Shown in pieces: positions 61,434 through 63,856 of a stretch of 64,000 nt of DNA (positions are counted from its first letter, which is position 1; each line of letters begins with the position of its first letter). The notes below the pieces were generated by a model. The model did not search any database, was not told the origin of the DNA, and saw nothing but the letters and a program-made list of their open reading frames with translations. Origin of the DNA: Sinorhizobium mexicanum (GTDB lineage: Bacteria; Pseudomonadota; Alphaproteobacteria; Rhizobiales; Rhizobiaceae); assembly GCF_013488225.1 (NCBI RefSeq), contig NZ_CP041238.1:3507501-3571500 (forward strand). The letters are read 5' to 3'. The position numbers were made by a program, and so were the translations under genes.

Positions 61434-61493
61434 TCCTGCCCCCACGCCCGGCTCACGTGCGTGAAAGCCGCATCAAATCAATCATGCATTAAT

Positions 61494-61597
61494 CTGCATG
61501 TTTCCTTAAATCGTAGCCGATTTGAGGATAAAAACATGCAGCAATTCAAGGTGCTACAGCATCCTTTGCGCGTCTGATTAGACGCGCGGCGCTGTAG
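61494..61597 (-). repeat. RIME1-like repeat, full copy, reverse orientation
   Basis: The best consensus copy in the window: CTGCATG to CATGCAG, linker CAATTCAAGGTG, then CTACAGC to GGCGCTGTAG. It lies between the DUF3108 gene and the EamA gene, both on the minus strand. Confidence 0.9.
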
Positions 61598-61640
61598 TTA
61601 GCGCCCGTTCGCGACGAGCGAAAGAGAATTTCGGGATTGA

Positions 61641-62783: not shown

Positions 62784-63074
62784 ATGTCCCGTAGTTGCGA
62801 ATTGACCGGCAAGGGCGTCCAGTCGGGCCACAATGTCAGCCACGCCAACAACAAGACCAAGCGCAAGTTCCTCCCGAACCTGTGCAACGTCACGCTGATT
62901 TCCGATGCTCTCGGCCAGCGCTTCCGCCTGCGCGTTTCCGCAGCCGCTCTCCGCTCGGTCGAACACCGCGGCGGGCTCGACGCTTTCCTGCTGAAGGCTG
63001 ACGAGAACGAGCTGAGCATGCGCGCTCGCCTGCTGCGTCGCCAGATCGTCAAGAAGACCGCTGAAGCAGCCTGA
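62784..63074 (+). CDS. rpmB: 50S ribosomal protein L28
   Basis: A small basic protein of the large ribosomal subunit. The 96 residues begin [20 protein letters not shown] and carry [19 protein letters not shown] and [22 protein letters not shown]. The C-terminal extension over E. coli L28 is normal in alphaproteobacteria. It is a single-gene unit with a strong promoter and terminator. Confidence 0.97.
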
Positions 63075-63102: not shown

Positions 63103-63136
63103 AAGGCTTGCGGGCTTCGTCCGGCAAGCCTTTTTC
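63103..63136 (+). terminator. Rho-independent terminator after rpmB
   Basis: AAGGCTTGC and GGCAAGCCTT pair around a GGGCTTCGTCC loop, followed by TTTCTCG. It lies 28 bases after the rpmB stop codon. Confidence 0.8.
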
Positions 63137-63188
63137 TCGTGTCTTGACCTATTCATCCGCCGGGCAAGCATCCGGTCACGTCCTCCAA

Positions 63189-63219
63189 CTGGTGGCATCA
63201 CCCAGGATAAAAAAATGCT
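63189..63219 (+). promoter_or_regulatory. Candidate preQ1-I-like riboswitch overlapping the yhhQ start codon
   Basis: Stem P1 is CTGG (63189-63192) with CCAG (63202-63205). The loop GGCAT (63194-63198) can pair with ATGCT (63215-63219), which is the yhhQ start codon plus two bases. The A-rich stretch GATAAAAAA (63206-63214) would be the third loop. A C directly before the 3' arm of P1 (63201) sits where the preQ1-binding cytosine is in Tte/Bsu preQ1-I aptamers. The AGGA ribosome-binding site (63204-63207) lies partly in P1. A fold of this kind would shut off translation when preQ1 is bound. This was deduced by hand only; pairing by chance is possible. Confidence 0.45.
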
Positions 63220-63856
63220 GATCAGCCGCACCTTCTTTGTCTATGTCGCGCTCATGACCTCGGTGGTCGTGGCGTCGAATTTCCTCGTACAATATCCGCT
63301 TCCGGGCTCCATTGCCGGCATGAACCTCGGCGACCTGTGGACTTGGGGCGCTTTCAGCTATCCCTTCGCCTTCCTCGTCACCGACCTTACCAACCGCCAT
63401 TTCGGGCCGCGAATTGCGCGCCGCGTGGTGGTTGCCGGCTTTGTCGTCGGCGTCACGTTCTCGATCTACTTCGCGACGCCGCGCATCGCGATCGCCTCTG
63501 GCTCGGCATTCCTCTTCGGTCAGCTCCTCGACATTTCCGTGTTCAACCGGCTACGCAGGCAGACCTGGTGGCGCGCGCCGCTCGCCGGCTCGCTCATCGG
63601 CTCGGCGCTGGACACCGCGATGTTCTTCTCGTTTGCCTTCGCGCCCTTCTTTGCGTTCTTTGGACCGAACGACAGCTTTGCGCTGGAGACCGCTCCCCTG
63701 CTCGGGGTGCTTGCAGCAGGAGCGCCGCGCTGGATTTCCTGGGGGCTCGGCGATCTTCTGGTGAAGGTCCTTTGCGGCATCGTGCTGCTCTTGCCCTATG
63801 GAGCGCTGATGAGCGTCATCAAGCCAATGCCGGCGGCCAACGCCACCGCCGCATAA
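63215..63856 (+). CDS. yhhQ: Queuosine precursor transporter (YhhQ/COG1738)
   Basis: An inner-membrane importer of preQ0/preQ1, bases used for queuosine in tRNA. The 213 residues contain six hydrophobic segments; the markers are ASNFLVQYPLPG, WGAFSYPFAFLVTDLTNRHFG near the N-terminus and SGSAFLFGQLLDISVFNRLRR. gluQ, which also acts on queuosine-tRNA, is elsewhere in the window, so the strain has Q metabolism. The start codon lies inside a possible preQ1 pseudoknot. Confidence 0.93.
   Translation: MLISRTFFVYVALMTSVVVASNFLVQYPLPGSIAGMNLGDLWTWGAFSYPFAFLVTDLTNRHFGPRIARRVVVAGFVVGVTFSIYFATPRIAIASGSAFLFGQLLDISVFNRLRRQTWWRAPLAGSLIGSALDTAMFFSFAFAPFFAFFGPNDSFALETAPLLGVLAAGAPRWISWGLGDLLVKVLCGIVLLLPYGALMSVIKPMPAANATAA

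Follow-up and report, generated by a model that had tools for sequence, protein, structure and literature searches.

What kind of signal occupies the bases that lead into yhhQ in Sinorhizobium mexicanum, and can the start codon of a gene itself form one strand of a metabolite sensor? In the window (the whole stretch of 64,000 nucleotides analysed here), positions 63189-63219 of the + strand read CTGG T G GCAT CA C CCAG GATAAAAAA ATGC T and run into yhhQ, a queuosine-precursor transporter gene. A sequence-only reading had proposed a minimal preQ1-type riboswitch at this site, with a gene match that would raise it above chance. The comparison of relatives indicates that the block is probably a preQ1-I riboswitch that acts in cis to switch translation OFF, and that it either descends from the type III element of E. 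coli yhhQ or is a sister of it.

Architecture of the element

Base identities are given for 188 genomes of 99 genera. The main count took in 201 genomes, 71 of them chosen through a model match; its pattern demands U6, CAT, ATG, and the specificity C, which builds in the constancy of these bases and makes variants score as missing. The helix P1 is formed by CUGG (63189..63192, +) and CCAG (63202..63205, +), with the bases originally claimed, and in the window it encloses a loop of nine nucleotides (63193-63201, +). The loop opens with U (63193, +), the equivalent of the ligand-reading U6 of E. coli, followed by nucleotide 7 (63194, +), which is G in the window and in 123/188 genomes, and U in 65/188, the latter form occurring in 53 of the 99 genera. 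The 5' strand of P2, the anti-start GCAU (63195..63198, +), has a CAU demanded by the pattern, whereas its first base, nucleotide 8, is free. The short loop L2 (63199..63200, +) varies in sequence and comprises 2-3 nucleotides: CA in 123 genomes, UA in 22, AA in 16, AC in 14, CU in 8, CAA in 3, and CAC in 2 of 188. It is followed by C (63201, +), the equivalent of the preQ1 specificity base (C15 in wild-type E. coli, C14 in the crystal). This C precedes CCAG in 188/188 instances, as the pattern demands, and both it and the leading U are also present in the model matches L185-L203, which were obtained without the pattern.

The presumed Shine-Dalgarno (SD) sequence AGGA (63204..63207, +) lies 7 nt before the AUG with half of its bases within P1, and is continued by the A-rich linker L3, GAUAAAAAA (63206..63214, +, 9 nt); counting the A of AUG, seven As are found in 180/188 genomes. 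Both the straddling ribosome-binding site and the near-pure A third loop of the original proposal are present. The 3' strand of P2 is the start codon together with the first base of codon 2 (AUG+C, 63215..63218, +). P2 had been extended to five pairs, GGCAT with ATGCT; the four pairs GCAT/ATGC stand, and the fifth, G63194-U63219, is rejected since position 63219, at the middle of codon 2, is unconstrained (A31 C27 T26 G8 among 92 genera). Single-sequence folding of the element (z -0.67) would not by itself have revealed it.

The downstream gene (63215..63856, +) is yhhQ (COG1738/QPTR; PF02592, E 4e-22), with its ATG at 63215. The upstream neighbour (62784..63074, +) is, judging from its protein sequence, what we take to be rpmB, the gene of ribosomal protein L28; its homologue lies 5' of the motif in all 125 instances with at least 900 nt of upstream sequence (58 genera). 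A terminator-like hairpin separates the two genes (63112..63131, +; one found by consensus scan vs 0.2 expected), and a scan of the yhhQ upstream region found no sigma-70-like promoter. In many genera with G7-G8 loops, a CTCC(A/G)(A/G) sequence abuts the 5' side of P1 (window 63182-63188), while by eye it is not evident in the class with U7-C8 loops (UC class). It could pair with GGA or mark the transcript start.

Distribution and conservation in Rhizobiaceae

Within the genus of the window, the block is present in 32/32 yhhQ upstream regions with differing flanks. Among family loci anchored on yhhQ (119 genomes, 64 genera), the motif occurs at 118/120 and is absent from L116 and L139; 60 of these 120 loci were hand-picked among the YhhQ matches listed. 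Named loci carry it in 71/80 cases, and as these are the best 80 of 588, close relatives predominate; carriers include S. meliloti (L249), Rhizobium johnstonii 3841 (L279), Agrobacterium tumefaciens (L253), Mesorhizobium (L320), Aurantimonas (L316), and Hoeflea (L309). The remaining 9 of the best 80, among them Amorphus, Devosia, Roseibium, and Prosthecomicrobium, lack the motif; seven are from families outside Rhizobiaceae and two are unclassified. No motif was found at the yhhQ loci of 11 genomes from other families of the order. The nearest named relatives of the window's YhhQ belong to Sinorhizobium/Ensifer (84-88% identity). The S. meliloti leader also appears at yhhQ in L342 (CP090106.1, 3.7 Mb, labelled plasmid pSymB) as in the chromosomal-looking L249; the plasmid label may be wrong. 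A second VUT/COG1738 homologue, 32-34% identical and present in some relatives, has no such element before the match (L049, L050, L051).

Conservation is sharply bounded. In a profile of one pattern-matching sequence per genus (92 genera), much of the inner invariance is built in and the flanks are free. Information rises to 2.0 bits at the first base of P1 and has this value at 23 of the 29 positions up to the G of AUG, the other six having 0.84-1.85, while the 50 bases 5' of P1 carry 0.01-0.63 bits. Information falls to 0.4 and then 0.13 bits at the two bases after the AUG. With this profile and its presence at 118 of 120 yhhQ-anchored loci, the element is far above chance; loop and P1 are conserved among relatives, as the original proposal required.

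A covariance model (R2) built from 17 sequences with P1 as the only structure matched 265 of 297 sampled family genomes and 99 of 109 genera at a cut-off of E 0.01; searches over more than 40 genomes used stricter filters. Class-wide, it matched 3/385 genomes, namely the window's own genome and two weak sites without yhhQ nearby. YhhQ is present in 280/297 of the sampled family genomes. The 32 without an R2 match divide equally into 16 without YhhQ at E 1e-20 and 16 with it; of the latter, three (L203, L323, L324) do contain the motif and 13 have kept YhhQ with no intact element (L116, L139, and L325-L336 among the loci). A near-motif pattern scan of the element-less loci found only L336 (g129), in which yhhQ is kept and the element has decayed to CTGGTTCCATTACCAAG. 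Three small genomes of g31 (L330-L332, 1.5-1.6 Mb) likewise keep yhhQ and have lost the element, while a larger genome of the same genus (L195) retains it. If g31 is Bartonella, which is a guess, the loss would fit an early loss of queuosine (Q) genes. Such an early loss is described for Bartonella in a paper whose main text does not contain the word "riboswitch" (PMC10723273).

Some model matches elsewhere were discarded. For the outside-family matches L183, L184, and L069-L071, tblastn detected no yhhQ within the stretch examined, and in L070, L205, and L212 the match falls within a coding sequence reading AGGITQHIGAYQV, presumably that of the translation factor infB. The hairpin sequence CTGGTGGCAT(C/T)ACCCA recurs in these three coding sequences without the linker or the AUG.

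Covariation of the two helices

P1 reads CUGG/CCAG in 186 of the 188 genomes. The two exceptions, CCGG/CCGG of L196 and CUAG/CUAG of L197, are each compensated on both strands, and the pattern would have let uncompensated mixtures of these forms through. Pairing holds in 148/148 cells on 37 distinct sequences, with 0/500 shuffles as good, and none of the slid P1 controls contains a double change.

In P2, the fourth pair connects nucleotide 8 with the base after the AUG, both unconstrained in the pattern, and is complementary in 123/123 genomes with G7. Loops with G7-G8 are combined with C after the AUG (107 genomes, 39 genera) and those with G7-C8 with G (16 genomes, 8 genera), and genus g161 contains G-C and C-G forms alike. 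In the UC class, the AUG is followed by A, C, or U (35, 21, and 9 genomes) and by G in 0/65. The same rule holds for the 117 yhhQ-anchored motif genomes alone (GG/C 89, GC/G 2, UC/A 16, UC/C 8, UC/U 2). In a permutation over 47 genus-state combinations, with relatedness still included, 0/100,000 shuffles reached 47/47, and the absence of G after the AUG in the UC class has p about 0.001, again with relatedness included. One test of P2 covariation dropped 9 of the 37 distinct sequences, as their differing A-run or linker length put them out of register.

A quick tree of 77 of the 129 full-length YhhQ proteins (at most two per genus and state) requires at least 11 changes among the three loop states in its best form, of which the starred, well-supported branches force 2-3 per class. 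The independent contrasts on the starred branches (3 and 2) all point in the right direction, their number being too small for significance in a sign test. Covariation of the proposed pairing outside the AUG is thus found at the fourth pair, without exception among the 123 genomes. The three CAU:AUG pairs, demanded by the pattern, are invariant in the family members that were counted, so that their case rests on the comparison with gammaproteobacteria and on seven genomes in which the AUG is out of frame.

The AUG as a pairing strand

The motif's AUG is in frame with yhhQ in 183/188 genomes (judged with tblastn for 125 and from the frame of the match for 58); start sites were read from the reading frames. 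In seven genomes it is out of frame and yet kept in P2. Five of them (L198-L201 and L203, from three genera) have an in-frame ATG 13 or 16 nt downstream (7 or 13 in L203), and two of a fourth genus with a longer linker (L323, L324) have one at +13. The base after CCAG is G in 182/183 in-frame instances and C in 5/5 out-of-frame ones, and L323 and L324 are also without the linker SD. L202 combines a CCAGC linker with an in-frame AUG and has an in-frame GTG 15 nt on.

Apparently, the AUG of the out-of-frame genomes forms part of a Shine-Dalgarno sequence, AUGGA. By eye, its GGA lies 8 nt from the new ATG in L199-L201, L323, and L324, and 11 nt in L198, and in L203 it ends 2 or 8 nt before the ATG, depending on the ATG chosen. 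If AUGGA acts in this way, P2 would hide an SD as it does in E. coli, and the AUG would have been kept for pairing, not for initiation. An in-frame GTG within the aptamer (-23) is a possible alternative start in L198, L200, L201, and L203.

Relationship to known riboswitches

The nearest known element is the type III preQ1-I riboswitch of E. coli yhhQ, with which the rhizobial one shares the H-type pseudoknot, a nine-nucleotide loop between GG and CC, U6, the specificity C, the A-rich linker, the yhhQ gene, and a design acting at the level of translation (PMC10622847). Likeness is closest in the UC class (65 genomes, 53 of 99 genera), which reads CUGG UUCCAU[C/U/A]A C CCAG, linker, AUG in 63/65 genomes, the other two having an L2 of 3 nt. 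The corresponding loop UUCCAU[C/U/A]AC differs in these 63 genomes by one or two of nine bases from the leaders of E. coli, Enterobacter, Salmonella, Proteus, and Aeromonas (E. coli type III loop, UUCCCUCAC). The E. coli leader (L054) reads UUGGG UUCCCUCA C CCCAA ... AAAAAGG, a layout repeated in the other four genera; in Klebsiella (L339), the same loop is combined with a much longer linker. At loop position 10, C is replaced by A, with the partner changing from G to U, which turns an anti-SD strand paired with AGG into an anti-start strand paired with AUG. Variation is also seen at loop position 12, as it is in Aeromonas.

The E. coli crystal structure reads U6 U7 C8 C9 C10 U11 nn C14, with P2 formed by C9-G30, C10-G29, and U11-A28; U7 enters a U7-A27-preQ1 triple, C8 forms the ceiling of the pocket, and the specificity C reads preQ1 (PMC10622847). 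U6 is the base that reads the ligand (PMC11625349). Equivalents of U6, U7, C8, A13, and C14 are present in 63 genomes of the UC class. The G7-G8 class of the window keeps U6 and C14, not U7 and C8, and the base before the specificity C is A in the window and in 83/92 genera, otherwise C or U.

Several properties distinguish the rhizobial element from its E. coli counterpart. Its P2 pairs with the AUG (and with codon 2 in the G7 classes) instead of with the SD AAGG (PMC10622847); the SD is placed in P1 and the linker, P1 has 4 bp, and the linker is nearly fixed at 9 nt. Loops with G7-G8 or G7-C8, unlike the U7-C8 of E. coli, are found in 46/99 genera. The features that define type III are present in part: the pseudoknot with covarying P1 and P2, the specificity C, the A-rich linker, and yhhQ downstream are all found, while an SD-like P2 partner (AUGGA) is seen in 7 genomes only and the UU and pyrimidine-rich loop is replaced by UGG in the window, UUCC occurring in 65/188 genomes. 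Because the SD is not in P2 and the window's class departs from the UU/pyrimidine loop, the element is reported as a variant of type III, not as a member. The element described here is found in Rhizobiaceae (GTDB sense), in contrast to a description of type III as almost exclusively gammaproteobacterial (PMC10622847); a later review gives type III as almost exclusively from Pseudomonadota (PMC11625349), a phylum to which the alphaproteobacteria belong. On sequence grounds, there is a strong case for placing the UC class in preQ1-I, and the class of the window is assigned there by continuity.

The original comparison was with the aptamers of Bacillus queC and Thermoanaerobacter, i.e., type II (RF00522). 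These form a pseudoknot of similar size, have loop purines as in the window's class, and carry AC before the 3' strand of P1, as the window does (PMC11625349); however, they differ in loop sequence and P2 partner. The nearest class is preQ1-I, with type III in place of the Bacillus and Thermoanaerobacter types. RF00522 gave no match at E 10 in the region, its best score in the genome (14.8 bits, gathering 39) lying elsewhere; since the crystallised type III switch of E. coli escapes Rfam as well, the missing match counts neither for nor against the element. The SAM-II riboswitches of alphaproteobacteria likewise use a small pseudoknot to control genes. They have another ligand, sequence, and set of genes (PMC1273637, PMC9373788). 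No earlier report of an element of the present kind was found in the open-access literature; the alignment of McCown 2014 might include alphaproteobacterial members.

Proposed mechanism and alternative explanations

When preQ1 is scarce, both P1, a weak helix of 4 bp, and the pseudoknot would be open, and the ribosome would use AGGA and AUG. Plentiful preQ1, made through QueF or imported, would sit between P1 and P2, pair with C63201, and clamp the H-type pseudoknot. In the clamped state, GCAU would pair with the start codon and the base that follows it, P1 would hold half of the SD, and the A-linker would lie along P1; SD and start codon would both be inaccessible and the transporter unmade. 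Synthesis of preQ1 is expected in the window's genome, which encodes QueF and TGT. Adding 300 nM preQ1 rescues the queC and queF mutants of S. meliloti (PMC3568095), which implies that it enters the cell, and the E. coli YhhQ/QPTR is a transporter of both preQ0 and preQ1 (PMC10723273, PMC5372724). An importer repressed by preQ1 is the expected logic. The structure and its association with yhhQ are well supported by the sequence comparisons, from which we also infer the ligand, its binding, the repression, and a ligand common to the G7-G8 and U7-C8 subclasses. It is likely that these elements constitute a start-codon-sensing branch of preQ1-I, in which the AUG, not the SD, closes the pocket, the first A of the AUG lies in the pocket ceiling, and codon 2 provides a fourth pair; certain lineages would have turned the AUG strand into the SD, with the gene start 13-16 nt later and the hidden signal swapped, and the G7 classes would represent a fourth type of pocket.

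On the other side, G-G in the window's class replaces U7-C8, two pocket bases of the type III crystal structure. The same fold and switch might therefore respond, in the G7-G8 class, to preQ0, queuine, or another 7-deazaguanine, an improbable alternative: the equivalents of U6 and the specificity C stay in place, and YhhQ imports preQ0 besides preQ1 (PMC10622847). The E. coli type III riboswitch, however, favours preQ1 over preQ0 (PMC10622847), and the repeated changes of loop class before the same gene on the best quick tree favour one ligand, though the starred branches force fewer of them. As the comparative evidence speaks to structure and not to ligand, the RNA might also be bound by a protein that represses yhhQ translation without any metabolite; this has a small probability, given that the loop, the specificity C, the A-linker, and the gene are those of a known preQ1 aptamer, which a protein site need not copy.

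Explanations without an RNA switch fare worse. SD, spacer, and AUG are all present, as a merely strong and conserved translation start would have them; but conservation is as high in P1 and the anti-start strand, 5' of the SD, as in the start itself, P1 changes are compensatory, and the AUG is retained in the out-of-frame genomes that have lost the linker SD, which makes this reading very unlikely. The probability is slighter still for an operator in the DNA or for a gene encoding a leader peptide (GTG GCA TCA ... TGA): the window does contain a 9-codon GTG frame ending at the yhhQ start, yet across the 188 genomes the indels in L2 (CAA, CAC) and the A-run (5-8 in length) break the frame, and the block covaries with codon 2, as expected of an RNA helix. 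The strong ribosome-binding site, the operator, and the leader peptide were all rejected.

If the preQ1-I assignment is true, Rhizobiaceae including Sinorhizobium, Rhizobium, Agrobacterium, and Mesorhizobium possess a near-universal metabolite switch at yhhQ, where Rfam showed none in the tested loci; queuosine synthesis is required for symbiosis in S. meliloti (PMC3568095). Burial of the SD would have been traded for burial of the start codon through one compensated base pair. The unusual point is that the start codon itself would be one strand of the sensor, and with sensor, SD, and start codon overlapping within about 30 nt, this is about as compact as regulatory RNA gets. The arrangement would also place a coding constraint on the protein, as the G7 classes have C or G as the first base of codon 2; with G7-G8 this codon starts with C in 92/92 cases, encoding Leu, Gln, Arg, or Pro.

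Neighbouring observations

Rfam scans of the yhhQ region gave no relevant match. Further upstream in the window (61483-61635, +), there is a sub-threshold match to RF02600 (BASRCI27, a Brucella sRNA; 33.1 bits, gathering 59.8, E 1.3e-4). This stretch contains a long hairpin (61494-61541), and a look-alike of it is located upstream of yhhQ in L029.
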